Origin: an uncultured Verrucomicrobia subdivision 3 bacterium
Lineage (GTDB): Bacteria > Verrucomicrobiota > Verrucomicrobiia > Limisphaerales > UBA11358
DNA length: 64,000 nt
Direction of reading: 5' to 3'
NCBI GenBank assembly: GCA_903865745.1
Contig: CAIPKV010000052.1
Span: forward strand, 1-64,000
The first letter of the stretch is position 1, and each line of letters starts with the position of its first letter. Shown here piece by piece: positions 10,593 to 62,477 of this stretch. The notes under the pieces were generated by a model. It was not told the origin of the DNA. It worked only from the letters and a program-made list of their open reading frames with translations, and searched no databases. The translations under genes and the position numbers were made by a program.

Positions 10593-10719
10593 AGTCGTGG
10601 CACAGTCTGGGGTGATTTTCGCACCTGACTGGGTGCTCAAAGCCTGTTTTCCGGCTAACACAGCCAGCTACAATGGCTTGAACACATTTACCTTCCGCTA
10701 ACTGTTGTTTTTTATACAC

Positions 10720-10990
10720 GTACTGACGTCTATGGCTTATCCACAGACGTCTGTTTGTCACGCACAGACGTCTATAGCTCACCCACAGACGTCTGTTTGT
10801 CAGGCACGAACGTCTATAGCTCACCCACAGACGTCTGTTTGTCAGGCACGAACGTCTATGGCTGACGCACAGACGTCTGTACGCGAGACACAGACGTCTA
10901 TGGCTGACCCACGAACGTCTGTTTGTCTCGCACAAGCGTCTATGGGTGACCTACAGACGTCCTTTTGGTCCACAATGACGTCTTGATGAG
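10720..10990. repeat. 21-bp phase-locked array A (GACGTC-centred, 13 units)
   Basis: The pentamer ACGTC (once GCGTC) recurs at 10726, 10747, 10768 and then every 21 bp up to 10978: 13 units with no indel. Units alternate in two forms, ACGTCTATRGCT... and ACGTCTGTTTGTC..., giving a 42-bp higher order. Most units are centred on a palindrome, up to ACAGACGTCTGT at 10744-10755. Because 21 bp is seven codons, both strands show open frames with a 7-residue repeat; I regard these as a by-product. The array lies in the 920-bp gap between the GH51 gene and the giant gene. Confidence 0.9.
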
Positions 10991-11513: not shown

Positions 11514-14500
11514 ATGAAAAACATCACCCGTCACCTCCTCACCACTGTCGTCGCCGGCTGCTCCTGGCTGGCGCTCTCAACCGTCTCCGTCTCGGCTGCC
11601 GGAACGGATACCTGGGTCGGCAACACCGACGCGAACTGGAACACGGCCGGCAACTGGACGACTGCTGGCGGCAGCACGCCGCCCGCCGCGGGTGATTCGC
11701 TGCTGTTTGGCTCGGCGGGCACCTCCGGCTCGACCTTGACCAATAATATTTCCAATCTGTCGCTGAACGGTATCACCCTGAATGGGCCGGGTGCGTTCAC
11801 CGTCAGTGGCAACGCCCTCACCTTGACGGGTGGCCTGACCAACGCTTCGACCGCCACGGAAGTTATCTCCGTGCTCTTGAGTGGCACGGGCGGCGTAGTG
11901 AATCCGGCGGGTACGGTGACGCTGGGCGGTGCGAATACCTACACCGGCAACACTGTTTTGGGTGACGGCACGGATGCCGCGGTTCTGAACCAGCCGGCGC
12001 CGACGGTTGGCGCAACCAATGTGGCGACCCCGGTTCTGTATCTGTCCTTTGACAAGGTTGCCGGCAAAACAGTCTTGAACGAAGGCAGTGGCGGGGCAGT
12101 GATGAACGGAGCGATAATGGGTACTGCTTCAATTGTCAGCGGCGGACGGCTGGGTGGAAATTGTTTGAGCGTTCCGGCACTCCTTAATTCTGGTTATGTC
12201 AAAATCAATAACCCGGTTGTGGCCATGACAGGCGCGGGTAGTTGGACGATTGGGATGTGGATCAAGACGTCAACTGCGGGAGCGGTCTATGCTTATCAAG
12301 GTGATGGAGGTTGGACCAGTGGCAACATGAGTTTTTATTTGAACGCTGGCAACACTACCTCGGGGACTCATGCCGGTGGTGTCAGTTACGCGCAGGGTTG
12401 GCAGACCGGTACAGCCGTCTGTAACGACGGCAACTGGCACTATGTGGTGATGACCCGTAATGGTTCCGCCACGGTTTTGTATGTGGACGGTAGTGTGGAT
12501 GCCTCGACCTCTAGTTGGGGTGCTGGCACGGGTGTTGGCAAGCAGTTGTGGATTGGTGCGAGCGGTGATAGCGCCGACGGTGCTGCCGGCTTGAATGGCT
12601 TGATTGATGAAGTTTCTGTTTATAACACTGCGTTGACCCTGACGCAGGTGCAATCACTTTATGCGGCGGGTACGCTCGAAGCGGGCACGATTTCGCCGGC
12701 TAGCTCGGTTTCGGTCGCCGCTGCTGCCACTTTGGATTTGTATGGTCGGGCACAGACGGTAGCTGGCTTAAGCGGTTCAGGCACGGTGGATTCGACGCTG
12801 GCCAGCGGCAAACCCGCTTTGATTGTCAACAACAGCACTACGAATGCTAGTGTCTTCAGTGGTGCTATCACCAACTCGGGTGCCACCAGTGCGCTTTCGC
12901 TCATCCAAGCGGGTACCAACAGTCTGACACTCAATGGCACGGCGGCCAATGGCTATACCGGCTCAACTATGGTTAATGGTGGCACACTCATTGAAGATTT
13001 TGCCAACGCCACTTCGGCTGCCAATCTCATTAGTAGCAGTTCGCCGCTTGTGCTCGGCGGCGGTACCCTGCAGGTCAAGCAGCAGAGTGCCATTACCACG
13101 TCGCAAACTTTTGCTGGCACCACAGTTTCTCCAGGTGCTTCGGTTGTTAACGGCACGCAGGTTGGCTCCGGGGCGGTGAATATTGCGCTCGGTGCCATCA
13201 CGCAAGTGCCCGGCGGCACGGTGGACTTCACTAATAATTCAACCGGCGCGACCACCACCACCACCAGTCCTATTGTCAACGGCATCCTTGGGGGTTGGGC
13301 GACGGTTGGAAATAACATTCCTTCCACGACATCGGGTGGTTGGGCGACCACCAATGGCAGCGGCCAAATCGTTCCATACGCGGGCTATACTACAGTTTCA
13401 GGCACTACTATATCTGCTGCGAGTGCTTCAACGCAGAACTGGATAACGGATGGTGGCACCCTTACAACCGGGGGGACTGTCAATTCGCTGATTGAGAGGG
13501 GCGGCACAGGCGATTTTATTGTCAACAACAGTATTACGCTGACCATTGCGAGCGGTGGTATTTTCATTGAGGGTGTAAACCAACGCTGGTTGGTGGCTGG
13601 TGGCAGCGCCAGCACTTTGAAATCAGGTCTGACGACGGGTGAAATGTACATTCATTCCGCCAATAATGCTTACAATGACTACGAAATCCGGCCGGTCATT
13701 GCCGACGGATCGGTTGCTACGACTGTTTATAAGGATGGTCCTGGGAATATCACGCTTGGTGGCTACGCCAAGACTTATTCGGGTGGTACGGTAGTCAATG
13801 GCGGTACGCTCCAACTTGCTCTCGGCGGTGCAACCGGTGTCATCCGTGGTACGCTGACCATTAATCCGGGCGCCACGGCTACCGCAACGGTTTTAGATGC
13901 AATCGGTTACACCACTGGAGTCACTGCCATCAACATCAATGGGGGTACATTTAATATTGGGGTTAACGCCAATAATGGTTTGTTGGCAACCGTGAATCTT
14001 ACTGGGGGGACTTTTAGTTCAACTGGCGGCGGGGCATTCAATTCAGCCGCTTTGGGGGTTAATTCATTGCCCAGTCCGATTACCTCTGTCTTCAGTGCCC
14101 CCTTCGCCATGCGCGGCGCCGGTTTGCCTATTAGTGTGGCTCAAGGCACTACAGCTAGTGGTATTGACCTCAACATTTCAGGCGCCATCGGCTATGGCTC
14201 GGGTGGCAGCGGTGGCATTACTAAAACCGGCGCGGGTACGCTAGAGCTTTCGGGTGCCAATACCTTCACGGGTAGCACCACCATCAATGCCGGGACCCTG
14301 TTCATCGGCGGTGGTGGCAAATTGGGTGGCGGAACTTATTCCGGTGCGATTGTTAACAACGGGATTCTGAACTACGGCAGCACGGCGGCACAAACCTTGT
14401 CCGGGGTCATTTCGGGAACAGGTCCGCTGATTGTGAGCGGTACCGGCATACCCGTGGTGACCGCCTCAAACACCTACACGGGTGGGACGGTCATTACTAA

Positions 14501-17500
14501 TGGCACTGAGTGGATTACGAGCGATGCCGCGTTAGGTGCGGTTCCGGGCAGTCCGGTGGTCAACCTAACCTTGAACGGCGGCACGTTGCACAACAACGTA
14601 TTGTCCGTCAACCTCGCCACCAACCGGACGATTTTACTCGGTCCGACGGGCGGTTATCTCGATTGCGGCTGGGGTGCAATCAATAACAATCCGAACACGA
14701 ATCTGACGGTCAATGGTTTGATCACCGGCACCGGCGGGTTGGGTATCAACTGGGATAACGGCAGCGTCGTCTTAAATGCGACCAACAATTATCAAGGACT
14801 AACCACCATTGGTGCGGCAGGCCCTGGTTATTATGCCGCTGCTGCGGCGAATCCGACCCTAGCCTTGGGCATTGACAACGCCTTGCCCTACGGGCCGAAC
14901 GCCAGCAATGTGGTGTTTGGAACCAGTGCGAACGCAAACTCCGTGCTCTTGAACCTGAACGGTCATAATCTCCAGATTAACGGTCTGTCGGGTAGCGCCA
15001 ATGCCATCATCAGCAACAGTGTGGCAGGCTCATACACCCTTACGTTTGGCAATAACAACGCCGGTGGCAATTATGCCGGTGTTATCGCTAACACCAATAG
15101 CACGCTGGCGCTGACCAAGATTGGCAGCGGCCTGCAGACACTCTCTGGAACCAACACCTACAATGGCAACACCACCATTTCCGGCGGCACGCTGGCACTG
15201 GGTGCGACGAGCTCGATTTCCAACTCGGCGAACATTTGGGTTGCCAGCGGAGCAATCTTTGATGTTTCGACGGTATCCGGGGGTTTTACGCTGGCCACTG
15301 GCCAGAACCTCTATGGTGGCGGCACGAACAATGGCCCCATCACAACGTCGGCTGCAGCAAACATCTATGCCGACGTGGGCGCTGGCTTTGCTACAAACAC
15401 CTTCAACAACAACCTGACCATTGCGGTCGGCTCAACCACTTACTTTAATCTGGGTACAAATTATAATGGAGCCAACGACTTCATCAGCATCAGCGGTAGC
15501 CTGGTGGACAACGGTTCGGTATCGATCAGCGCTCCGAGCACCTCGGCTAAACTAGCCACCAACAGCGATTATGTCCTGATGACAGCTGCCGGAGGTTTCT
15601 CGGGTTCGGTGTCGCCCACGCCGCTCTGGGGTGTCAAGCCGCTCAACTGGGCCAATTTCACGGTGATAACCAATGCTAACGGCGTCCTACTCCATTACAC
15701 GGCTTCTACTCCACCCATCATTGTTGCGGCCACAGCCAGCCCAACGCCGGTGACGCGTAATCAACACACTCTCATCACAGCCACGGTTGTTCAAGGTACC
15801 AGCTCTATAACGAATGCTACTCTGGATGCTAGCGTGTTTGGCCTGTCCGCGAGCATTCCGTTGGTGTTTGATTCGGCCTTAACGATTGGGCTGACCAACG
15901 TCTATACGAACAGCATTAGTATTCCGGCGAATACCGCCATCGGCGGCCCTTACGTTATGCCGGTCACGGTGGTTGATTCCGCGCCATTGACCGCTTCCGT
16001 GAACATTTCGCTGAACGTGGTGGCAACCAATCAGGTTTGGAACGGTGCCGGCCCAGATGCGAATACCGATGATAACACGAACTGGGTCAGCGGCGCGGCT
16101 CCCGGATACTTCGGTGATAGCATGGCTTTTGCCGGCAGTGTGAATACTAACCCGAACATGGATCAGAATTATACGGTGACCGGTTTGGCGTTCAGTAACA
16201 ATGCGGCTAGCTTCACCATCGGCGGGGGCAATACTTTGACCTTGTCCGGCAGCGGACCGATTGCCAACTATTCCACCAATACGCAGAATTTGAACATGAC
16301 CCTGGCGGATTCGGGAGGCGGTCTGACTGCCTCCGGCGTCGGCCCAATTGTACTGGGAACCACTGAAAGTTATACGGGTCCGACCACGGTAAGTTCAGGC
16401 ACTCTAAACGTCTCCAGTTCCGCCTCAGTGACTAGCACAGGCGTCACTACGGTGGGTAATACGGCCACTAACGCCGTACTAATCAACAATGGCGGAATGT
16501 CCCAACTCAAAATCAACGTCGGCACGGTGAGCAACGCGGTGGGTGCCATTTATCAAAATAGTTCCTACTTCTCGGAGAGTCAGGCTGGCGGTGCCACCGA
16601 CTTCCAGATTGGTAATGCCGCCGGTGCTTATGGCTACTTAAATGTCAGTGGCGGCACGGTAGGTACTTATGAACTCGGGATTGCTGGTGAATCGGGTGCC
16701 GGCAACGGCCTCGTGGATCTTTACGGCGGCACAATAAGTGACGGCGGCTGGCTGGTGATTTCACGCGTTACGGGGGCTTCGCCCCAAACCGGCGTCCTGA
16801 ATATTTTCGGAGGCACGCTTTACTATGGTAACACCGGCGGCGGCACTTTTGCCACCTGCTGGGGCAGTGGCCAAACCGCCGTCATCAACATCCTTGGCGG
16901 CTCAATCCAAAACAACTCTCTAACCACTTCCGGATTTAACTTGAACCAGAGTGGCAATGCTTCGAACACGGGCATTCTTAACCTGAATGGTGGCACCGCC
17001 CAAGCTTATAACGTGTTTGGTAGCTATGCTCAGTTAAACTTCAACGGTGGTACCTTGCAGCCGAGTGCAGCCAATGCGTCGTTTGTGACGGGCTTGGGTA
17101 GTGCGCGGATTTACAGCGGCGGCGCTACAATCAATGATAACGGCAATGCCATTACAATTAACCAGGCGCTGCTGGCTCCGACTGGCAATGGTGTCACCAC
17201 ACCCACCATTACTTCCGGTGGTGCGGGCTACGTTGCCCCGCCAATTGTCACCATCACGAATGGCGTGGGTGACACGACGGGCTCAGGGGCAACGGCGTTT
17301 GCTCAGATTGATAATTCCACCGGCAATATTACGAGCGGTCAGGTCACCAATATTATCATTACCTGCCCGGGTGTAAACTACTCGGTCACACCGACCTTCG
17401 TCTTGAGTGGTGGCGGGGCCAGCACACCAGCGGTAATCACTGGCAATGCCAACGCGGCCAATATCAGCGGCGGTCTGACCAAAACCGGAAGCACCACACT

Positions 17501-20500
17501 AACTTTAGGGGGCTCTAGCACCTATACCGGCAATACCGTTATCAATGGCGGCTCGCTCCAGTTGAGCGCGCCCGTGTTGCATCTGAGTTTTGATAATGTC
17601 AGTGGCGGCACGGTGATTAACCAGGGTAGCGGCGGCACGAATATGAATGGCACGCTAACGGGTACGGCCTCGATTGTTTCTGGCGGTCGCTTTGGCAATG
17701 CGTTGAGCATCCCGTCGGGTTTAGCGACCAATGCTTTTGTTTTGATTACTAATTCAGTCAACCCGCTTAATATCACGTCACCCAACAATAACTGGACGTT
17801 GGGGATGTGGCTTAAGACTTCTACAGCCGGTGGCGTCTATGCTTATCAGGGTTCTGGTGGCTGGAGCAGCGGTAACACCGAATTCTATCTGGAAAACGGG
17901 ACGGCGGGTGACGGGGCGGGAACGCATGCTGGCGGCGTCCGTTACGCTCAAGGCTGGCAATCAGGCACCAATGTAATTAATGATGGTAACTGGCACTTCG
18001 TTGTCATGACTTGTAATAATGGCACCAAGGCCCAGTATGTGGACGGTACCTTGGATTCGCTTGCTATCAACCAGTGGAATGGTGCCGGTAATGGCTCTGA
18101 AGTATGCATTGGTGGTACGCCGAGCGGCACTGCGGATAGCCAGATTGGCTTGAACGGTCTAATTGACGAAGTTTACATTTATAATCGCGCGCTGGGCCAG
18201 TCGGAGATTCAGCAGATATATAATAATAATAGTCCGCAGGTGCTGCCGACAAACACGCTGGTTAACGTGACATCCGGCACGTTGGATGCGGGTGGTCTTT
18301 CGCAACAGGTTGGGATGCTCACCGGATCAGGCAACGTCTTATTGGATGACAACACAGGCGCCTTGGGTGCATTGGTAGTAGGTAACGGTAGCACCAACAC
18401 CTTCAGTGGTGCCATCTCGGATACTTCTGGTGCGGGATCGCTCATCAAAGTTGGTACCGGCAAGCTGACGCTTTCCGGCGCGAACACTTATGGCGGCAGC
18501 ACAGTTATAAGCAACGGCACATTGGTCGTGAGTGGTTCCGTTGGTGCCGGCCCGGTGATTGTGGCCTCCGCTGGCACCTTGGGCGGCAGTGGCACGGTGA
18601 ATGGTTCAGTCACCGTCAGCGGTAATGTATCTCCTAGTGGCGAGGGCACATTTAGTTCACCCGGGACGACGCTCACCACGAGTAGTAATCTAACACTAGC
18701 CGCTGGCGGTATATGCAGTCTCGCGCTAAGTAGCAGTTACAACGGGGCAAATGATCAGATTATTGTAACCGGGGTCCTGACTAATAATAACCCCACTTAT
18801 ATCAGCGCTATTCACATCAGCGGTCCCAGCACGCTGGACCAGTCGGCCGACTATGTCCTGATTCAGACCTCTGGTGGGGTTGCGGGCACTTACTCATCCA
18901 CCGTGGTATGGGATGGGACCCCGCCGTCCAATGCCGCCAACTTCACCATCACTACCAACTCGAGCCAAGTGCTTTTGCACTATACGGCGACGACGCCGCC
19001 GACCGCGAGTATCTCGGCGGCACCCGCCACGGCATCTCGCAATCAGAGTGTCTTGGTAACGCTCAACGAGACCAATGGTAGTAGCGGCTACAGCAATGTG
19101 GTCCTAAATGCCAGTTCTATTGGCGCGGGCTACGTGACGCTGAATTTGAGTACTGGCAGCGGCGGCATCAATGTCTTCACCAACACAATCGCGGCCAGCG
19201 CCAGCACCTTGGCAACTACATACACTCTGGGGGCGATTGTGACAGACTCCAACGGCCTCACCGTTGGTGTGAGCTTTAGCTTGAATGTCGTGACTACGAA
19301 CGATGTGTGGAATGGTCTCGGTGCCGGCAATAATATTGCTGTTAACCTGAACTGGACCAATGGCGCTGCGCCGGGTTATGTCGGTGACAGTCTGGAATTT
19401 GCCGGCTCGACCCGGACTAGCCCGAACTTGGAAACCAATTACACTGTGACCGGTGTGACGTTTGATAATACGGCCAGCAATTTTAATATCGGCACGCTGA
19501 ACAGCAGTACGCTGGCTATTACAGCCAACGGCGTGGCCAACAACTCCGCCTACGCGCAGACCCTTAACGTGCCCGTCACCTTGAGTGCAGCGCAGACGCT
19601 CAACGCGGCCTCTGGTCCGTTGGCCTTAGGATCGAGCCTCACTAATGGCGGCTATCTGGTGACCGTCGCAGGTGTGTCTAACTCAACAGTCAATAGTATC
19701 AGCGGCGCCGGCGGGTTGACCAAGAATGGCGCTGGGATTCTAACCTTAAGTGGTGCGAGTACCTACACTGGCAACACAACAATCGGGGCGGGAACTCTCA
19801 ATCTCAGTGGTTCGCAGACGGGGGCTGGTGGACAGATGTTTGTGGGCAGCACCGCTGCCAATTCCGTGCTGCAAATCTCCGGCAGCCTGACCATGAGCAA
19901 CCTGATGGTTGGCAACGCCAGCGGCGCGGTTGGGGCTGTTTACCAGACCGGTGGTAGTGTGTCCGACGCCGTTGCAACAGCTTATGATAACAGCTGTATC
20001 GGAAACATCTTAGGCGCCTTTGGTTACTATTACGCAGGTGGGGGCACCTTTGCTTCGGCTGGTATTGCGGTCGGTGGCGAGCAGAATACTGCCAATATCA
20101 TAGTTCCTACCGGCGTGACCGGCGGTAATGGCATCCTGGATATTAATGGCAGCACAGTAAACGACAGTGGCTATCTCGTTATGTCCCGTGGTGCAACGAA
20201 TGAGACCGGCATTCTAAATGTATTCAACGGCACCCTGACATACGCTGGTGGCGGTATCGTCGCCAATTGGGGTTCCGGCAATCAGGTTTCCATCATTAAT
20301 ATTCTAGGTGGTGTCGTATCCAATACCGCGGCCGTTGGCTTCAACTTGAACCAGTCTGGCAACGTGACGAATACGGGCATTTTGAACTTGAACGGCGGCG
20401 TCGCCCGGGGAAATGTGGTGGCGGGCGCGCATGGTCAGGTCAATTTCAACGGCGGCACCTTGAAGGCCAGTGCGGCTAATGGGACATTCATGACGGGCTT

Positions 20501-23039
20501 AGGCGGTGCGCTGATTTACTCGAATGGCGCGACCATTGATAACAATGGCGTTGGCATCACCATCGGCCAGTCGCTGCAGGCTCCGGCCGGCTATGGCGTC
20601 AATTCAATCACCGTGGCGAGCGGCGGCTCGGGTTACATCGCCCCGCCCATTGTTAGCATCAGCGGTGGCGCCGGCACCGGTGCGACGGCGATTGCTCAAA
20701 TCAATCAAGCCACCGGCGTAGTCACGAACATTTTGGTGACCAGCGCTGGCAATAATTATCTCAGCTCCGATACGCTGACTGTCACCTTTGCCGGCGGCGG
20801 CGGCAGTGGTGCAGCGGCCAATGCCCCGGTGCTGGCGGCTAACGTCGGTGGCGGCTTGACCGTCAACGGTACGGGCTTGCTGACGCTCACTAGCACGAAC
20901 ACCTTTACTGGCCCGACCGTAATTAATGGCGGTACCATTCAGCTCTATAACGAGGCGGAGTTGGGAATAGTTCCCGGTTCGCCCGCGATAAACATAACCT
21001 TGAACGGCGGTGGTTTGTACAATAATAACTCCTCGCCCGTGTTCAGTGCCAACCGCACGATTTATCTTGGTACCAATGGCGGTTATCTCCAGGCTGGCTG
21101 GCAGCCGCAGGGCCGAACCTTTATCATCAACGGGTTGATTACTGGACCCGGTAGTCTGAACATCAACTGGGATGCATCGCCAATTTATTTAAACGCCACA
21201 AACACCTATCAGGGTGACACCACCATCGGCACGGCGTACGGAACCTACTATAATAACGTGGCCGCCAACCCGGTTCTGGCGTTGGGTATCGATAACGCCC
21301 TGCCTTACGGTACCAGCGCGGGCAATGTCGCGTTCGGAACCACCACAAATAACAATACGGCAACACTAAACCTAAACGGCCACAATGCACAAATCAATGG
21401 ATTGAATTCCACGGGCACCAATGCCATTGTTGATAACACGGTCGCCGGCACTACGAATGTATTGACGATTGGTAATAATAACCAAGGCGGCTTCTTTGCG
21501 GGTGTCATTCAGAACACCGGCGGTGTGATATCGCTCATCAAGACGGGTTCCGGCCTCCAGCAGCTCACCGGTACGGATAGCTATACTGGCAACACGACGG
21601 TCAATGGTGGTATTCTGGCCATTACCCAAGCCACGCTGGCCACGAACTCGACGGTCACGGTGGTCAGTGGGGCTAACTTCAGCCTGGGCTTCTCGACGAC
21701 CAATCAAGTGGCGTATCTGGTGCTGGGCGGAGTCAGCCAGGCGGCTGGCGTTTACAATAACGGCAACAGCAGCTTGATCTCGGGCTCAGGCAGCTTGCAG
21801 GTTCTGGTCGGTTCCTCTGGCTTAAGCACGAACGCCGATCTGACTTCGCTGGTCTTCAGCCCGAGTTTTGGCTTTGCGCCAGCGTTCTCGTCGAATGTGC
21901 TGACGGGCTACGCTGAAACGAATGCGTATCTGAGCACGCCGACGGTGACGGTCACGAATGCAGATCCGACAGCGACGAACACACTGATTGTCAACGGGGT
22001 TAACTTGGGGCAGTTAACCAATAGCATTGCGAGCCTCCCGCTGACCTTGGGCGTTGGCTCGACTAATGTGGTCCAGGTGCAAGTGGTCTCGCAAAGCGGC
22101 TCAGTAACCAATCTCTATGTGGTGAACGTGACCGAACAGGGACCGCCGCTGAGCACGAATGCCTATCTGACCTCATTGGTCTTTAGCCCGAGCTTGGGCT
22201 TTGCACCCGCATTCACCTCGAACATAATGACGGGCTATAATGAGACGAACGCCTATTTGAGCACGCCGACGGTGACGGTGACCAATGCGGATGCGACGGC
22301 GACGAACACGCTGATTGTGAATGGGATTAACTTGGGACAGTTGACCAACAGCATCGCCAGTGTACCGCTGACCTTGGGCGTTGGCTCGACCAACGTGGTC
22401 CAGGTGCAAGTGGTCTCGCAAAGCGGCTCAGTAACCAATCTCTATGTTGTGAACGTGACCGAACAGGGACCGCCGCTGAGCACGAATGCACTGTTGCTGT
22501 CGCTGGCTATCACGCCGGCCGGGACGTTGAATCCGACGTTTGCCTCTGGCACGTGGGTTTACAATGCGACCAACGCCTATACCAACAACCCGGTGACGGT
22601 GACGGCGACCAGCTCGAATGCGTTCGCGACGTTGCAGTTTAGCTTCAACGGAGGTGCGTATGGGGCGGTAGTAACGAACAACCTGACGTCTGGGTCAACC
22701 AGCTTGTTACTGAACCCACCGACTAACACGGTGGCGGTGCGAGTCGTCTCCCAAGACTTGTCACAGACGAACGTATACACGGTGAATGTGCTGTTGCAGC
22801 CTAGTCAGACAGTGCCGAAGCTGACGAACAACGTGAGCGCAGGGAACCTCAACTTGAGCTGGCCGGCGGATCATCTGGGCTACCGGTTGCTGGTGCAGAC
22901 GAACAACCTGAACAAGGGTGTGAGCAGTAACACGAACGACTGGGGCACGGTGGTTGGATCAACGTTAACTACGACGACGAATCTCCCAATCATCAAGGTG
23001 GGCGTAACGAACGAGTACTATCGCTTGGTATACCCTTAA
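11514..23039 (+). CDS. Giant secreted autotransporter-associated beta-strand repeat protein with two LamG and three cadherin-like domains
   Basis: 3,841 residues with a signal peptide (MKNITRHLLTTVVAGCSWLA, then 'LSTVSVSAAG'). The body is rich in Gly, Ala, Ser, Thr and Asn and carries about 14 copies of the PF12951-type motif, e.g. 'LELSGANTFTGSTTINAG', which fold as a beta-helix. Two LamG-type lectin-like domains are inserted ('PVLYLSFDKVAGKT' near residue 175, 'PVLHLSFDNVSGGT' near 2020). A long module starting 'NQVWNGAGPDAN' (~16036) recurs as 'NDVWNGLGAGNN' (~19300). Near the end are three cadherin-like (PF12733-type) units of 109 residues. It closes with a 'LNLSWPADHLGYRLLVQT...YYRLVYP' domain common at the end of secreted verrucomicrobial proteins. 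No autotransporter barrel or PEP-CTERM tail is visible, so how it is exported or anchored is unknown. Adhesion to or wrapping of glycan substrate is an inference. Confidence 0.9.
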   Translation: MKNITRHLLTTVVAGCSWLALSTVSVSAAGTDTWVGNTDANWNTAGNWTTAGGSTPPAAGDSLLFGSAGTSGSTLTNNISNLSLNGITLNGPGAFTVSGNALTLTGGLTNASTATEVISVLLSGTGGVVNPAGTVTLGGANTYTGNTVLGDGTDAAVLNQPAPTVGATNVATPVLYLSFDKVAGKTVLNEGSGGAVMNGAIMGTASIVSGGRLGGNCLSVPALLNSGYVKINNPVVAMTGAGSWTIGMWIKTSTAGAVYAYQGDGGWTSGNMSFYLNAGNTTSGTHAGGVSYAQGWQTGTAVCNDGNWHYVVMTRNGSATVLYVDGSVDASTSSWGAGTGVGKQLWIGASGDSADGAAGLNGLIDEVSVYNTALTLTQVQSLYAAGTLEAGTISPASSVSVAAAATLDLYGRAQTVAGLSGSGTVDSTLASGKPALIVNNSTTNASVFSGAITNSGATSALSLIQAGTNSLTLNGTAANGYTGSTMVNGGTLIEDFANATSAANLISSSSPLVLGGGTLQVKQQSAITTSQTFAGTTVSPGASVVNGTQVGSGAVNIALGAITQVPGGTVDFTNNSTGATTTTTSPIVNGILGGWATVGNNIPSTTSGGWATTNGSGQIVPYAGYTTVSGTTISAASASTQNWITDGGTLTTGGTVNSLIERGGTGDFIVNNSITLTIASGGIFIEGVNQRWLVAGGSASTLKSGLTTGEMYIHSANNAYNDYEIRPVIADGSVATTVYKDGPGNITLGGYAKTYSGGTVVNGGTLQLALGGATGVIRGTLTINPGATATATVLDAIGYTTGVTAININGGTFNIGVNANNGLLATVNLTGGTFSSTGGGAFNSAALGVNSLPSPITSVFSAPFAMRGAGLPISVAQGTTASGIDLNISGAIGYGSGGSGGITKTGAGTLELSGANTFTGSTTINAGTLFIGGGGKLGGGTYSGAIVNNGILNYGSTAAQTLSGVISGTGPLIVSGTGIPVVTASNTYTGGTVITNGTEWITSDAALGAVPGSPVVNLTLNGGTLHNNVLSVNLATNRTILLGPTGGYLDCGWGAINNNPNTNLTVNGLITGTGGLGINWDNGSVVLNATNNYQGLTTIGAAGPGYYAAAAANPTLALGIDNALPYGPNASNVVFGTSANANSVLLNLNGHNLQINGLSGSANAIISNSVAGSYTLTFGNNNAGGNYAGVIANTNSTLALTKIGSGLQTLSGTNTYNGNTTISGGTLALGATSSISNSANIWVASGAIFDVSTVSGGFTLATGQNLYGGGTNNGPITTSAAANIYADVGAGFATNTFNNNLTIAVGSTTYFNLGTNYNGANDFISISGSLVDNGSVSISAPSTSAKLATNSDYVLMTAAGGFSGSVSPTPLWGVKPLNWANFTVITNANGVLLHYTASTPPIIVAATASPTPVTRNQHTLITATVVQGTSSITNATLDASVFGLSASIPLVFDSALTIGLTNVYTNSISIPANTAIGGPYVMPVTVVDSAPLTASVNISLNVVATNQVWNGAGPDANTDDNTNWVSGAAPGYFGDSMAFAGSVNTNPNMDQNYTVTGLAFSNNAASFTIGGGNTLTLSGSGPIANYSTNTQNLNMTLADSGGGLTASGVGPIVLGTTESYTGPTTVSSGTLNVSSSASVTSTGVTTVGNTATNAVLINNGGMSQLKINVGTVSNAVGAIYQNSSYFSESQAGGATDFQIGNAAGAYGYLNVSGGTVGTYELGIAGESGAGNGLVDLYGGTISDGGWLVISRVTGASPQTGVLNIFGGTLYYGNTGGGTFATCWGSGQTAVINILGGSIQNNSLTTSGFNLNQSGNASNTGILNLNGGTAQAYNVFGSYAQLNFNGGTLQPSAANASFVTGLGSARIYSGGATINDNGNAITINQALLAPTGNGVTTPTITSGGAGYVAPPIVTITNGVGDTTGSGATAFAQIDNSTGNITSGQVTNIIITCPGVNYSVTPTFVLSGGGASTPAVITGNANAANISGGLTKTGSTTLTLGGSSTYTGNTVINGGSLQLSAPVLHLSFDNVSGGTVINQGSGGTNMNGTLTGTASIVSGGRFGNALSIPSGLATNAFVLITNSVNPLNITSPNNNWTLGMWLKTSTAGGVYAYQGSGGWSSGNTEFYLENGTAGDGAGTHAGGVRYAQGWQSGTNVINDGNWHFVVMTCNNGTKAQYVDGTLDSLAINQWNGAGNGSEVCIGGTPSGTADSQIGLNGLIDEVYIYNRALGQSEIQQIYNNNSPQVLPTNTLVNVTSGTLDAGGLSQQVGMLTGSGNVLLDDNTGALGALVVGNGSTNTFSGAISDTSGAGSLIKVGTGKLTLSGANTYGGSTVISNGTLVVSGSVGAGPVIVASAGTLGGSGTVNGSVTVSGNVSPSGEGTFSSPGTTLTTSSNLTLAAGGICSLALSSSYNGANDQIIVTGVLTNNNPTYISAIHISGPSTLDQSADYVLIQTSGGVAGTYSSTVVWDGTPPSNAANFTITTNSSQVLLHYTATTPPTASISAAPATASRNQSVLVTLNETNGSSGYSNVVLNASSIGAGYVTLNLSTGSGGINVFTNTIAASASTLATTYTLGAIVTDSNGLTVGVSFSLNVVTTNDVWNGLGAGNNIAVNLNWTNGAAPGYVGDSLEFAGSTRTSPNLETNYTVTGVTFDNTASNFNIGTLNSSTLAITANGVANNSAYAQTLNVPVTLSAAQTLNAASGPLALGSSLTNGGYLVTVAGVSNSTVNSISGAGGLTKNGAGILTLSGASTYTGNTTIGAGTLNLSGSQTGAGGQMFVGSTAANSVLQISGSLTMSNLMVGNASGAVGAVYQTGGSVSDAVATAYDNSCIGNILGAFGYYYAGGGTFASAGIAVGGEQNTANIIVPTGVTGGNGILDINGSTVNDSGYLVMSRGATNETGILNVFNGTLTYAGGGIVANWGSGNQVSIINILGGVVSNTAAVGFNLNQSGNVTNTGILNLNGGVARGNVVAGAHGQVNFNGGTLKASAANGTFMTGLGGALIYSNGATIDNNGVGITIGQSLQAPAGYGVNSITVASGGSGYIAPPIVSISGGAGTGATAIAQINQATGVVTNILVTSAGNNYLSSDTLTVTFAGGGGSGAAANAPVLAANVGGGLTVNGTGLLTLTSTNTFTGPTVINGGTIQLYNEAELGIVPGSPAINITLNGGGLYNNNSSPVFSANRTIYLGTNGGYLQAGWQPQGRTFIINGLITGPGSLNINWDASPIYLNATNTYQGDTTIGTAYGTYYNNVAANPVLALGIDNALPYGTSAGNVAFGTTTNNNTATLNLNGHNAQINGLNSTGTNAIVDNTVAGTTNVLTIGNNNQGGFFAGVIQNTGGVISLIKTGSGLQQLTGTDSYTGNTTVNGGILAITQATLATNSTVTVVSGANFSLGFSTTNQVAYLVLGGVSQAAGVYNNGNSSLISGSGSLQVLVGSSGLSTNADLTSLVFSPSFGFAPAFSSNVLTGYAETNAYLSTPTVTVTNADPTATNTLIVNGVNLGQLTNSIASLPLTLGVGSTNVVQVQVVSQSGSVTNLYVVNVTEQGPPLSTNAYLTSLVFSPSLGFAPAFTSNIMTGYNETNAYLSTPTVTVTNADATATNTLIVNGINLGQLTNSIASVPLTLGVGSTNVVQVQVVSQSGSVTNLYVVNVTEQGPPLSTNALLLSLAITPAGTLNPTFASGTWVYNATNAYTNNPVTVTATSSNAFATLQFSFNGGAYGAVVTNNLTSGSTSLLLNPPTNTVAVRVVSQDLSQTNVYTVNVLLQPSQTVPKLTNNVSAGNLNLSWPADHLGYRLLVQTNNLNKGVSSNTNDWGTVVGSTLTTTTNLPIIKVGVTNEYYRLVYP
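21825..22478 (+). repeat. Tandem 327-bp duplication of a cadherin-like domain
   Basis: The sequence AGCACGAA recurs at 21825, 22152 and 22479, a step of exactly 327 bp (109 codons). Units one and two are almost identical in DNA, for example through the stretch encoding 'VVQVQVVSQSGSVTNLYVVN', so this duplication is recent. A third, diverged unit ('LSTNALLLSLAITPAG') follows. Confidence 0.9.
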
Positions 23040-32804: not shown

Positions 32805-33165
32805 CCCTTTTGGTTTGTTGAAAAACCCGTTTGCTTTGGTCCAACTCAACGTTGTTCTGGACCAACTCACCGTTGCGCTGGAGCAGGTGGTGAGCTTTTG
32901 AGACAGCACCCGTTGTGACCGACTGGAAACAGCCTTGCGCTGGGGCATCTCACCGTTGCGATGGAGTAAAACACCGTTGTTATGGCCCAACTCAAAGTTG
33001 TTCTGAAGCATCTCACGGTTGGTCTGAACGGGTATGCATGTGCTACGGAAGAAACACCGTTGTTCTGGAGCAACACACCGTTGCTTTGGACCAATTCACT
33101 GTTGTGATACGACAAAACACCTTTGTGATGGGCCAAAACAAAGTCTTGATGGAGCGATAAACGGG
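32805..33165. repeat. 21-bp degenerate array B (GTTG-N8-CAAC dyads, about 16 units)
   Basis: TTG anchors fall at 32831, 32852, 32873, then 32956, 32977, 32998, 33019, then 33060, 33081, 33102, 33123, stepping 21 bp inside each block. Between the blocks the phase slips by one base or so. The typical unit reads CACCGTTGTTCTGGACCAAC plus T, and its core GTTG-N8-CAAC is a dyad. It fills the gap between the DUF1549/DUF1553 gene and a decayed gene. Both strands show long open frames that only reflect the seven-codon period. Confidence 0.82.
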
Positions 33166-50258: not shown

Positions 50259-50339
50259 TGAGTGTGGAATGACTTTAGGTTACCGTGCGCAAGTAAACCT
50301 TGGCCTGGGAGGAGAGTCGGATGGGTTTTTGCCTTCGTA

Positions 50340-50410
50340 GCGGCGTCTCGGCAGAGCGCCGCAAACATCCCACCTTATTTTTAGATGGCGGCGCTCTACC
50401 GAGACGCCGC
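50340..50410. repeat. REP/MITE-like element with 23-bp inverted arms
   Basis: Left arm 50340-50362 (GCGGCGTCTCGGCAGAGCGC...) and right arm 50388-50410 are reverse complements at 22 of 23 positions, with a 25-base loop. It has no T run. It lies between the 3' end of the epimerase gene and array C. The size and high symmetry fit a REP-type element. Confidence 0.75.
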
Positions 50411-50587
50411 CACGCTGCTTTATCAACGAACCGCTTAGCCACTTACCTTGCCCAGACTCGACTCTAGGTCATCAATAACTGTTCAATTATCTTCCCGCCT
50501 GCCCAAAACATCGTTGGCGCGCCATTTTTGATGGGTTTTGGCCGGTTTGACCCCATTTACCCCCGGCCAAAGGTCATCCACAACCCA

Positions 50588-50777
50588 CATTTGCCAATCC
50601 ATGAGGGGCATTTGCCGATCAACGGACCCCCATTTGCCGGTCCAGAAGAGGCATTTGCCCGTCCACGACTCACGTTTGCCTGTCCACGGAGGGCATTAGC
50701 CCGTCCATAACCCACATCAGCCGGTCCACGACCTCCATTAGCCGGTTCACGAATGGCATCAGGAGGACTCAAACGCC
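50588..50777. repeat. 21-bp degenerate array C (CATTTGCC units)
   Basis: CATTTGCC or a variant starts at 50588, 50609, 50631, 50652, 50673, 50694, 50715, 50736 and 50757: nine units, with one 22-bp step and otherwise 21-bp steps. The unit core is CATTTGCCGGTCCACGA followed by four variable bases. Some units extend to the palindrome GGCATTTGCC. It sits between two convergent genes (epimerase and FAD/Fe-S dehydrogenase), so it is not in a promoter region for either. Confidence 0.85.
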
Positions 50778-58843: not shown

Positions 58844-59149
58844 TTAGCACCACTGCTTGCCGATTCCGTCAATTCCGCTGCGTTTCAAATCGTCTGGTGT
58901 CATACAAGGGTGCAGTTGAACATCCGCTTCAAACGTCAGAAACCACGGCTCGGCCAACGCGGGAATTTTCGTTGCATCCGGAAGATCTACTACCAGCAAG
59001 GCGCTCCGATGGCCATGGTGATCCGTGAAATAAACCGCCTCAGGTTTGATTGCGTCAAGGATTTTGCCGATTTTCGCGCCGACGGTGCCGTCTTTCACAG
59101 CGGCGTTAAAAATGTGATGGGGGATGGTGACGGTCATTAGCATTCTCAT
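58844..59149 (-). CDS. Small conserved alpha/beta protein (DUF3303-like)
   Basis: 101 residues. Ferredoxin-like alpha/beta pattern: 'MTVTIPHHIFNAAVKDG', 'ILDAIKPEAVYFTDHHGHRS', 'ALLVVDLPDATKIPALAEPW' and 'DVQLHPCMTPDDLKRSG'. I have seen similar ~100-residue bacterial proteins, some grouped with DUF3303-type domains; I am not certain of the assignment and no function is known. It converges on mnmE, 16 bp away. Confidence 0.6.
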   Translation of the reverse strand: MRMLMTVTIPHHIFNAAVKDGTVGAKIGKILDAIKPEAVYFTDHHGHRSALLVVDLPDATKIPALAEPWFLTFEADVQLHPCMTPDDLKRSGIDGIGKQWC

Positions 59150-59364
59150 GATGATTCCTTGGATTTGGTTTCGTTAAATAACTCAAAGATAAAGGACGAG
59201 GCGGGTCGCCGTCTATCCCGTTTCAGACGTTTTAAGAGTGGGTAGACCATTAAATATTGTACAGCCGCTATTTTATGGCGAGTTCTATCCCAGAGAGATG
59301 GTCAATTTTCGACACTTGGAGGTCCGTTTCGACGCTTTACATCTAAAAGTACTGTTTTTTGTCG

Positions 59365-59763
59365 TTTGGTGGTCATTTTGGTCGATTCAAGTGGTTGCTA
59401 ACCGCGTTAAGTTGGCAATTTACCGCGTTCAGTTGCCAACTAAGCGTCTTCAGTAGCCAGCTAAGCACGTTCATTGTCATGCTAATTGCGTTTAGCAGCG
59501 TGCTAAACAGGTTTAGCACGACGCTGAACGGCTTTATTTGCGTGCTGAACGGGTTTAGCTGGCAACTAAATGCTTTCAGTCGCGTGCTAACGACCCCCAG
59601 CGTCGTGCTGAAAGTCTTCAGTCGCTTGCCAACCGTGTTCATTTGGCAACTGAACGCGGTAAATTTCCAACTAAACGTTCTCACTTAGCAACAAAACACG
59701 TTTACCCGCGCGGTAAAGGACTTAAGTTGGCAAGTATATGCGTTCAGTACTGGGAAACTTTGC
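59365..59763. repeat. 21-bp phase-locked array D (TTYAG-N7-CTRAA dyads, 19 units)
   Basis: Units start at 59365, 59386, 59407 and then every 21 bp to 59743: 19 units with no indel. Most follow a 17-bp dyad TTYAG-N7-CTRAA plus four spacer bases. Examples: TTTAGCAGCGTGCTAAA (59491), TTTAGCACGACGCTGAA (59512), TTTAGCTGGCAACTAAA (59554). The unit at 59701 reads TTTAC-N7-GTAAA, i.e. both arms changed together. I count the right arm CTRA in 12 of the first 14 full units after 59386 or close variants of it. Both strands are open with a Leu/Phe/Ser heptad, as expected from a symmetric seven-codon unit. It lies between the GH116-like gene's 3' end and the start of the small protein gene. Confidence 0.9.
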
Positions 59764-59873: not shown

Positions 59874-62477
59874 CTAGGCAAGGCTGACTTCCAGTTTCTC
59901 TCCGGTAGAAATAATCACCGACTTTTCAAAGGTTAGGAGTACCCGCTGATCATTTCGAGTTAAGCGGGTGTTAATAGATTGTCCAGCGTGCTGAACCTTT
60001 GCTGAAGTTGCCGATTCGCTGGCCAGTGCGATGGTGTTCAATTCCAAGTTGCCCCAATGCACAGAAATTTCCGCCGTTAGATTTCGACCTTCCAGCTTTT
60101 GTGCATAACTGCCCCACCCTTCCGCACTCGTGAACGCGCACTTGAAATTCTCCGGCGTCAGTCGCGGCGCAAATCCGATGTGCTGTTTCGGTCCGTGATA
60201 TTCAAAGCCGCACGCCGCGAGATAAACGCCATAGCTCGCCATGCTGCGGGCATAATGATCGCCGCACTCGACTTCGTTCCACGGATTGCGGCGCGACGCG
60301 TGGTAGCGGTCGTGTACCGCGCGCGTCACGGCGAGACCTTCCATCACCATGCCTTCCCAGATCATGTGGCCGGCCACCTGATGCTCGAACCCATTCATAC
60401 ACTCATCAAAATAACCCGCCGCCCATTCCGCGCCTTTGCCTTTGGCTTGAGCGTAATCCCAGTCGCGGCGGGGGAATGTACACATCAACAGGCCGGCCTC
60501 CCCGGGCATGGCATACCAGCGCCCGGGTTTATAGACTTCGCGATACGGTCCGACATCCGGCGAAAAGTTGTAACGCCAGAGCGATTTCAGCGCCTTTACA
60601 GTTTCCGGCTTCGGTAACACGCGTGGCAGTCCAACTTGAAATGCCCAACTCTGTCCGAATACCTGATCAATCTCACAGCCCGTGCCGGAGTTGATGGAGT
60701 CTAGATGCCTCGGGTCAACCTGGTTGATGAAATAATCGCCGTCGAAAAGCTGCTCCACCAGATTTTTCCGGCCCGTCGCCAAAATGCTCTGGCATTGCGC
60801 GGCAAAATCCGTGTCGCCCATTTCATCCGCCATCACCGCCGCGCCAGCGAGCGACGCGAGATAAAGTCCGCTCAGCCACGCGACTTTTCCAAACCAATCC
60901 GTGTCGAGCGTGTTGTGCTGATTGCTTTCGATGAGGCCATCGCCGTCGGCGTCCTTCTTGATGAGCCACTGCGTCGCGAGTTTGATTTTTGGCCAGTTGC
61001 GTTTGAGAAATGCGTCATCCAAACACATCTGGTGTTCGCGCAAAGCGCGAAGGATTGTTCCCGCCTGCGCGTCAATCGCTGGAATGCTGTTACGCTCGGC
61101 GCGGAACTTGATCGCACCGTCCGGCTTCTGTGCGATGCCAAAGTCCACGCGCTCGCGCGTGTTGCGTTCAAGGTCGGGAAACAGCCGCGCGATGGCATGG
61201 GCGTAGTGATAAACGTGGCCGCACGTCCCTGCGCAGCAGCCGACGCCTTCCCAGCCGTAGAAGCGGCCGTTCGCAAAACGGAAACACGTCGAGGTCGCAA
61301 GGATGGACGCGTTCAGCATCGTGCGGTCAAGAAACCAGAACGGCAGCGTGGAATCATACCAAGTGTCCCGCCAGAGTTTTGTCTGCGATTCGAGCCGTGA
61401 AACATTTTTTGTAACGTATTCCGCGATCGCCTGCGCCGATGGAAATTTCGTCGCGTAAAAACGTCCGCAGTTGTTGAAGCCTTCCTTGATGGAAAGATTC
61501 GGAAAATGCCACGCGAGAACGAACGTCACCGTTTTCGATTCCCCGGCAGCGAGTTTCAGCTTGCGCCCGAGCGAGCCGAAAAGTTTTTCCGCGAAGGAAA
61601 CTTTTTTATCGCCACTGTTGTTATCCGCACCGCCGAGCAATGCCAACGCCAGCGTGCCGAAGTCAGCCAATTTTTCGAGAGACGCGGACTCTTTCGGGTC
61701 GGCGGGAGTTGCGGTCTTTGCTTCAGGCGCAGCCTCGGCACTGCAAACCAGCAGCGCCGCGCCGTGCGATTTCGCGATACGGTTGATCAGCAGACCATCG
61801 CGCTTGCGGTTGAACAGGCACACGCCATTTTCCAGTTCGCCAATGAGCGTGGCCTCAACGGGAGCGGAGGAAGTGTTATGCAGCGTGAATTGAAAAATCG
61901 TCGCAGGCAGGCTGGAGTCGTCCGTGTTCAGCGGGATGAAGGGCGAGAATGCTTCCAACTTCACCGTGAGCGGCACGGCCGGGTCAGAGTAATTGACGAT
62001 GCCCACCGGATACTCGCCGCGAAAAGTGATTTCAGAAATACCATCGCGGTCGAGGGGAATTATTTTATCGCCAAGCTTGAGCGAAAATTTTTGTGTGAGC
62101 GGTGCGGCGGGCGTGAGCGGTTTGGCGTAATGCTCCGCGCCGGTCTTGATGAATTGGTTGAAAATATCCCAATGCCACAGCCGACCATCGCCGCCGAGAT
62201 ACAACTGGCCCGCGCCAATGCCGCCAATAGGCATGCCGACGAACTTGAGTTCATTGCCGCGAAGAACTTCCGGTGTGCCGCGCTCGAAAAGAGATTTCAC
62301 CCAGTCCGGAGAAAGTTTTTTGTCGGCGGGTACTAAATGGTCAAAATCCGCGCGTGTGAACGGCCCCGCCATGGCTGGCAACCGGGAGAAAGCCAGTCCG
62401 AGTGCGGTTACGGCGGAGACCTTGAGGAAATCACGGCGAGCCCATTGGTTTTTAGAAAAATTAGATAGCGGTTTCAT
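59874..62477 (-). CDS. Tat-exported GH116-like glycosidase (non-lysosomal glucosylceramidase family)
   Basis: 867 residues with a Tat signal ('ARRDFLKVSAVTALGLAFSR'). The N-terminal beta domain ('LKFVGMPIGGIGAGQLYLGG', 'RLWHWDIFNQF') and the C-terminal (alpha/alpha)6 domain ('DADGDGLIESNQHNTLDTDW', 'GQSWAFQVGLPRVLP', 'NPWNEVECGDHYARSMASYG') are those of GH116. The conserved acid/base Asp can be placed in 'TLDTDWFG'. The stretch where human GBA2 has its nucleophile (E-Y-R-M-Y-N-T) reads instead 'EGVGCCAGTCGHVYHYAHA', with three cysteines. It likely acts outside the cytoplasm on beta-glucosides or xylosides; substrate not shown. A sulfatase gene lies just upstream on the same strand. Confidence 0.85.
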   Translation of the reverse strand: MKPLSNFSKNQWARRDFLKVSAVTALGLAFSRLPAMAGPFTRADFDHLVPADKKLSPDWVKSLFERGTPEVLRGNELKFVGMPIGGIGAGQLYLGGDGRLWHWDIFNQFIKTGAEHYAKPLTPAAPLTQKFSLKLGDKIIPLDRDGISEITFRGEYPVGIVNYSDPAVPLTVKLEAFSPFIPLNTDDSSLPATIFQFTLHNTSSAPVEATLIGELENGVCLFNRKRDGLLINRIAKSHGAALLVCSAEAAPEAKTATPADPKESASLEKLADFGTLALALLGGADNNSGDKKVSFAEKLFGSLGRKLKLAAGESKTVTFVLAWHFPNLSIKEGFNNCGRFYATKFPSAQAIAEYVTKNVSRLESQTKLWRDTWYDSTLPFWFLDRTMLNASILATSTCFRFANGRFYGWEGVGCCAGTCGHVYHYAHAIARLFPDLERNTRERVDFGIAQKPDGAIKFRAERNSIPAIDAQAGTILRALREHQMCLDDAFLKRNWPKIKLATQWLIKKDADGDGLIESNQHNTLDTDWFGKVAWLSGLYLASLAGAAVMADEMGDTDFAAQCQSILATGRKNLVEQLFDGDYFINQVDPRHLDSINSGTGCEIDQVFGQSWAFQVGLPRVLPKPETVKALKSLWRYNFSPDVGPYREVYKPGRWYAMPGEAGLLMCTFPRRDWDYAQAKGKGAEWAAGYFDECMNGFEHQVAGHMIWEGMVMEGLAVTRAVHDRYHASRRNPWNEVECGDHYARSMASYGVYLAACGFEYHGPKQHIGFAPRLTPENFKCAFTSAEGWGSYAQKLEGRNLTAEISVHWGNLELNTIALASESATSAKVQHAGQSINTRLTRNDQRVLLTFEKSVIISTGEKLEVSLA

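Follow-up and report, generated by a model that had tools for sequence, protein, structure and literature searches.

Array D, situated in the window—the whole analysed stretch of 64,000 nucleotides, G000:C52:1-64000—belongs to a genome-wide class of mostly non-coding tandem arrays, whose units follow each other at a nearly invariant step of 21 bp and keep their phase, about half of the arrays being built of dyad-symmetric units. Leaders recur in front of families of these arrays, and among the paralogues of array D the half-sites switch in a mirrored way. It is quite possible, although the reading is put forward with caution, that array D offers a non-coding row of docking sites, forming a cooperative DNA-binding platform; the binding, the dimeric state of the protein and the cooperativity are what we infer from this anatomy. 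The source genome (3.63 Mb in 87 contigs) comes from a freshwater representative of Verrucomicrobia, its nearest named relatives being metagenome-assembled genomes of the uncultured Verrucomicrobia subdivision 3 (Limisphaerales/Pedosphaerales). The features concerned are collected in Table 1.

Table 1 Features of the window and of the source genome; positions refer to the window unless a contig is given
Feature	Position	Strand	Remarks
Leader of array A	10613..10724	+	Common to C79:90637, C52:75130, C28:53547 and C85:62611
Array A	10725..10976	.	21-bp class; box ACAGACGTCTGT with 9-bp intervals; 42-bp superperiod
3841-aa ORF	11514..23039		Internal 327-bp repeats (21825-22603)
Array B	32823..33158	.	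21-bp class; units weakly conserved
Array C	50577..50765	.	21-bp class; non-palindromic box
Small hypothetical ORF	58844..59149	-	One side of array D; mnmE beyond the ORF
Leader of array D	59299..59385	+	Strand as read towards the array; ~70-81% identity to the leaders of C13, C49 and C79
Array D	59386..59742	.	17 units of exactly 21 bp each; dyad TTYAG-N7-CTRAA centred on unit position 9
35-bp segment of array D	59405..59439	+	Inverted repeat partner at 59643-59677, 94% identity
Inverted copy of 59405-59439	59643..59677	-	Internal inverted duplication in array D
Unit with TTTAC...GTAAA	59701..59721	.	Half-site the same as the box in the paralogues C79 and C59
Last unit of array D	59743..59763	.	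Partial or decayed
GH116 glycosidase gene	59874..62477	-	Other side of array D
cas1	C59:48767-49435		Within 1 kb of a 66-bp CRISPR-like array; the only cas1 match in the source genome

Anatomy of array D

Array D is intergenic, and no cognate Rep/Par gene was recognised among its neighbours, i.e. mnmE, the hypothetical ORF and the GH116 gene. The initial annotation had counted 19 units in phase from 59365; the 21-bp step stood up to analysis, but the first unit did not, the row at 59365 (TTTGGTGGTCATTTTGGTCGA) fitting poorly and forming a part of the flanking leader region, which leaves 17 good units and the partial one at 59743. The self-match of the array (59386-59763) reaches 0.543 at lag 21 and 0.545 at lag 42, the best-lag maximum over 500 dinucleotide shuffles being 0.347. 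The units have only a few positions in common—T2, A4, T14 and A16 are the most conserved—and a constant repeat is absent. The dyad already described for them is borne out, since its score of 0.542 exceeds 299 of 300 column permutations (mean 0.418; 1/300 as high), with dinucleotide shuffles giving at most 0.384; besides the axis in the unit, a second one lies at position 19.5.

Paralogous arrays and mirrored switching of boxes

Array flanks in the source genome cluster into families that keep the same orientation relative to the array. Array D has at least five paralogous arrays there, which keep its layout; four of them have its leader, which recurs at C13, C49, C79 and C85:38972, with a weaker match at C15. 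The half-site is TTTAG in D, C13 and C15, TTTTG in C49, TTTAC in C79 and in the leaderless C59, and TTTGC in C85:38972. Positions 4-5 thus read AG, TG, AC or GC according to the array and are mirrored at 13-14 in most units, the commonest left-arm dinucleotide of each leader-bearing array being the complement of that of the right arm. Outside the half-sites four pairs of arrays are collinear unit by unit, as judged from permutations that scored as high for D-C13 (0/5000), D-C49 (1/5000), C13-C49 (25/5000) and C79-C13 (0/5000), which indicates that a box can change in place and not by re-amplification. It should be noted that C85:38972 has no clear register with array D; switching in place is thus demonstrated for a part of the pairs only. 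The best paralogue, C13, is 80% identical to array D with no gap in 293 aligned bases, and only small, largely compensating gaps separate C59 from C79 and A from C52b; one unit of C59 is 20 bp long.

Concerning array A, two box variants alternate in it with 9-bp intervals that recur between its units. The boxes behind its leader are ACAGACGTCTGT in array A itself and at C79:90637, ACTGACGTC at C52:75130, and AAGCTCCCGCTT at C28:53547 and C85:62611. The last two arrays (L252:1322-1500 and L253:1550-1760) carry the constant 12-bp AAGCTCCCGCTT in every full unit, with variable 9-bp intervals, and are the same at the leader-distal end, with a difference of a single whole unit close to the leader; as a paralogous pair they look superficially CRISPR-like. 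The intervals of the A family recur also between arrays, and many have a common TGAC/TCAC core. A third leader, found at L036:2570 and L265:10430, carries GTAAATGGCTT and GTAAACGTCTG.

A genome-wide class of 21-bp arrays

The self-match scan covered 864 kb of the source genome, i.e. the window, 20 stretches partly placed around pattern hits and 20 more, one of which covers an already known array; all counts thus rest on sampled stretches. The fundamental period is 21 in 43 of the 58 strongly self-similar loci, and 20, 22 and 41 in one locus each, the remainder having mostly short periods or the period 66, the latter representing one array counted five times. The second 20 stretches alone yielded 18 21-bp arrays in 400 kb, which would correspond to ~160 arrays per genome, an approximate number because some of them are probably coding (L048, L049, L060). 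They are non-coding rows of ~8-18 boxes each, with few coding exceptions among the ~160. Their phase is strict, 374 of the 394 scorable inner units being exactly in place, and the unit consensus is nearly always different among 46 arrays. About half (22/46) are palindromic with a score of at least 0.57 (95% quantile of the null 0.58); the non-palindromic ones keep the 21-bp step, for example with the direct box GTAAATGGCTT at L036:2570. A/T content has its peak at 10.5 bp in D, C13, C15, C59 and C79, a feature that is not universal among the arrays. Neighbours of the other 21-bp arrays were mapped as ORFs only, and the position of an array relative to genes is not uniform.

Young homogeneous 21-bp arrays were seen at L273:2461-2586 in the source genome and at L130:19002-19106 and L131:19863-19967 in the congener G017; the latter two reach contig ends, and assemblies may therefore break in such arrays, leading to their undercounting. 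A near-perfect long hairpin (window 50335-50420; GCGGCGTCTCGGCAGAGCGCCGC...GCGGCGCTCTACCGAGACGCCGC) shares the intergenic region with array C.

Distribution among relatives

Arrays of the D type are absent from 39 relatives, in which at most three isolated, chance-like matches were found. The flanks of array D are only half syntenic there, because the GH116 gene does not adjoin mnmE. The 48 congeners examined lack the inner parts of the leaders, except for short matches; the matches outside the source genome lie mostly at the outer end and correspond to a generic repeat (leader of array A) and to a terminator-like hairpin beside the C49/C79 leader. Sparse 21-bp arrays occur in the congeners G013 (the TTTCGACGCGTCGAAA type), G017 and G014/L149, and non-coding ones are rare in the ~1.27 Mb examined around mnmE in 80 genomes; the source genome is thus strongly enriched in them. 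Insertion boundaries were sought at array C and at C52:66567 by comparison with G013 and G009, whose sequences are too diverged for placement.

Palindromic arrays with a period of 41-42 bp were found in two relatives (G029 and L175). Such arrays, equivalent to four turns, were observed in other members of the order at L071:13913-14240, L135:11190-11517 and 16132-16330, and L175:15170-15430, some of them alternating two palindromes.

Covariation and symmetry

Unit 59701 does read TTTAC...GTAAA, as had been reported, and had been taken as a compensatory change. Array D shows no excess of arm covariation over shuffled units: the arm pairs 1-17 to 5-13 give z from -1.4 to +0.4 against shuffled partners, with just a weak tendency in the inner pairs 6-12 and 7-11 (z 1.4). 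This unit, one of a kind in array D, is consequently unremarkable in statistical terms, and compensation within the array, as a specific argument, fails its test in array D. Selection on symmetry and spacing, proposed on the same occasion, finds its support elsewhere, namely in the near-invariant step among ~45 mostly unrelated arrays and in the half-sites mirrored between arrays.

With the 22 palindromic arrays pooled and all pairs used, 1429 Watson-Crick pairs were counted about the unit axis against 1378.8 expected (z 3.5), the controls giving z 0.4 for the linker axis and -2.5 to +2.1 for shifted registers of the unit axis. Covariation within units across these arrays is thus weak, and kinship among units can inflate it. 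A value of z 6.7, obtained for pairs that were already well paired, was discarded as selection-biased in favour of the unselected z 3.5. In that same restricted, well-paired set the G-T, A-C and other mismatches are equally depleted with no strand asymmetry, which is unlike an RNA helix.

Alternative explanations

Satellite DNA is the main rival of the docking-site reading, followed by structured RNA, guide arrays and coding repeats. According to it, a selfish or neutral two-turn-ruler activity duplicates 21-bp units, modules bearing a leader spread by recombination and the units decay, the partial symmetry originating from hairpin-templated correction of quasi-palindromes. The young arrays of identical units (L273; L130/L131 in G017), the modules duplicated to many loci with gains and losses of whole units, and the very different array numbers between congeners all agree with such an origin, and the weak covariation within units is the trace expected of template correction. 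Neutral slippage, on the other hand, would not yield a single unit length for unrelated sequences, and a satellite sits uneasily with phase retained in strongly diverged arrays, with boxes conserved while intervals diverge (C28, C85), and with half-site changes that are array-wide and mirror-symmetric in collinear arrays. We regard it as rather unlikely, if a serious contender.

Sponge RNAs of the CsrB/RsmZ type consist of ~18 imperfect short repeats in ~360 nt with a GGA motif in the loops. Array D resembles them in the number of its imperfect short repeats (~18) and in length (~360 nt), but differs by the exact 21-bp step, the lack of an apparent GGA loop motif and of strand asymmetry, and by having no Rfam match, none being found in the whole window. 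More generally, the array could be transcribed, from its leader or from a neighbouring gene, into tandem hairpins acting as a sponge, stabiliser or terminator. The predicted fold of array D is indeed far beyond that of shuffles, but on both strands equally (z -8.3 and -7.3), and while the C79 module lies between a gene end and a terminator-like hairpin, which is common to C49 too, many non-palindromic arrays have the same step, long hairpins are not in excess over unit permutations, and G-T mismatches are tolerated no better than A-C. A structured transcript thus appears improbable. A single giant hairpin, considered from the predicted fold of array D, was rejected, its global pairing being 52.5 against 50.8 (sd 3.5) in unit-order permutations.

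The possibility of guide-RNA-like arrays, CRISPR- or TIGR-like, with locus-specific 12-bp repeats and 9-bp spacers, is raised by C28 and C85, which combine constant boxes of 12 bp with 9-bp intervals that vary and with a leader, and whose agreement at the leader-distal end gives way to differences close to the leader. TIGR arrays have two alternating, locus-specific repeats of 8-12 nt, unique 9-nt spacers and a repeat unit of 36 nt (PMC12045711); they are processed to 36-nt RNA and associated with a Nop-domain (Tas) protein. Array D shows no such alternation. Arrays A, C28 and C85 are like them in alternating short, locus-specific repeats with 9-bp intervals, but unlike them in the unit of 21 nt instead of 36 nt and in intervals that are not unique; since the A-family intervals recur between arrays and many share the TGAC/TCAC core, they are not free guides. 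A Nop-domain protein (PF01798) had no match in the source genome with a search that detected the archaeal positive controls, although a very divergent domain could be missed by it. With CRISPR arrays there are in common the leader, the tandem palindromic units and the gain or loss of whole units, yet 21-bp units are too short, and in array D it is the arms that are conserved, not whole repeats. A CRISPR identity of array D was rejected, its units sharing few positions, where CRISPR repeats are nearly identical and alternate with unique spacers, and the only cas1 gene being near a separate 66-bp array. The latter, an ordinary-looking CRISPR array of at least 28 copies, was observed at L264:13928-15877 (G000:C59 ~45.9-47.9 kb). 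A guide function is, all in all, very improbable.

Least credible of all is a coding heptad repeat F-S-x-x-L-N-x, possibly decayed. Most of array D is covered by open frames (109 aa on +, 103 aa on -), and unit positions 3, 6, 12, 15 and 18 show Y/R degeneracy, but a palindromic unit of 21 bp can by itself keep both strands open. TTG is the only start of the + frame, which meets a TAG stop inside the array, the 20-bp unit of the paralogue C59 shifts the frame, and substitutions between D and C13 are just mildly commoner at third positions (25/97 vs 17/98 and 17/98); neither a conserved start site nor strong purifying selection on codons was seen.

Comparison with known arrays

Plasmid iterons and partition-site arrays, such as RepA iterons, sopC, ParR and omega repeat sites, are tandem, helically phased, often palindromic and bound cooperatively. 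The 21-bp arrays are like them in their tandem sites at a helical step and their whole-unit periodicity. They are unlike them in occupying ~160 chromosomal loci with array-specific boxes, in half-sites switching between paralogues, and in that a cognate gene beside the arrays was not recognised.

REP/BIME elements are dispersed intergenic palindromes, clustered and present in hundreds of copies (PMC3733652, PMC2817692). The 21-bp arrays share the dispersed, intergenic, palindromic and clustered character, but differ by the exact step and the box that is nearly private to each array; no GTAG/CGTC tag of REP/BIME is apparent in the array D consensus, and the 46 arrays are not one palindrome family. 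The REP-associated tyrosine transposase (Y1_Tnp) is not expanded, its two copies in the source genome, against 0-9 in 23 relatives, being fewer than in most relatives in which few or no arrays were seen.

Proposed mechanism and significance

Neither a protein that binds the 21-bp arrays examined nor an association with a gene or a cognate neighbour was found, so that the mechanism beyond the sequence anatomy is one that we infer. In the docking-site reading, each 21-bp unit would be one symmetric site, with a half-site of about TTTAGC and its mirror, for a two-fold symmetric DNA-binding protein, one dimer being accommodated per two helical turns. The sites would lie on one face of the helix, given that the step equals two turns of B-DNA. 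This two-turn step, present in both palindromic and non-palindromic boxes and approximately doubled in some relatives, speaks for a reader that contacts double-stranded DNA on one face of the helix. The conserved and oriented leader of ~90-150 bp suggests a site of nucleation, from which the array might fill cooperatively to give a nucleoprotein cluster or short filament. The mirrored, array-wide changes of 1-2 base pairs per half-site fit altered recognition by a symmetric dimer, and the boxes may diverge between arrays by such concerted switching as the specificity of the protein changes. It should be pointed out here that serving dozens of boxes at ~160 loci would call for either many specificities or one very flexible reader, and that a dimer can explain only a part, because about half of the arrays are non-palindromic. 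The role would most likely be chromosome organisation, partition-like tethering or silencing.

Taken as a class, the ~160 arrays, many of the leader-plus-array type, could conceivably represent a nucleoprotein scaffold with many specificities, hitherto undescribed, whose role would be to organise the chromosome or to mediate conflicts among elements, a view to which we would give only guarded credence. The part of the literature that was searched contains no description of such arrays. If real, they would be a class of dispersed DNA elements with constant spacing and variable recognition sequence, the reverse of most repeat families. Arrays with the same leader and switched boxes would then be natural experiments, in which a DNA-binding protein co-evolves with ~15 sites at once. 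In an abundant and poorly cultured phylum, the arrays might represent a further, new level at which the chromosome is organised; should they turn out to be selfish, a ruler of 21 bp for duplicating DNA in tandem would still be new.
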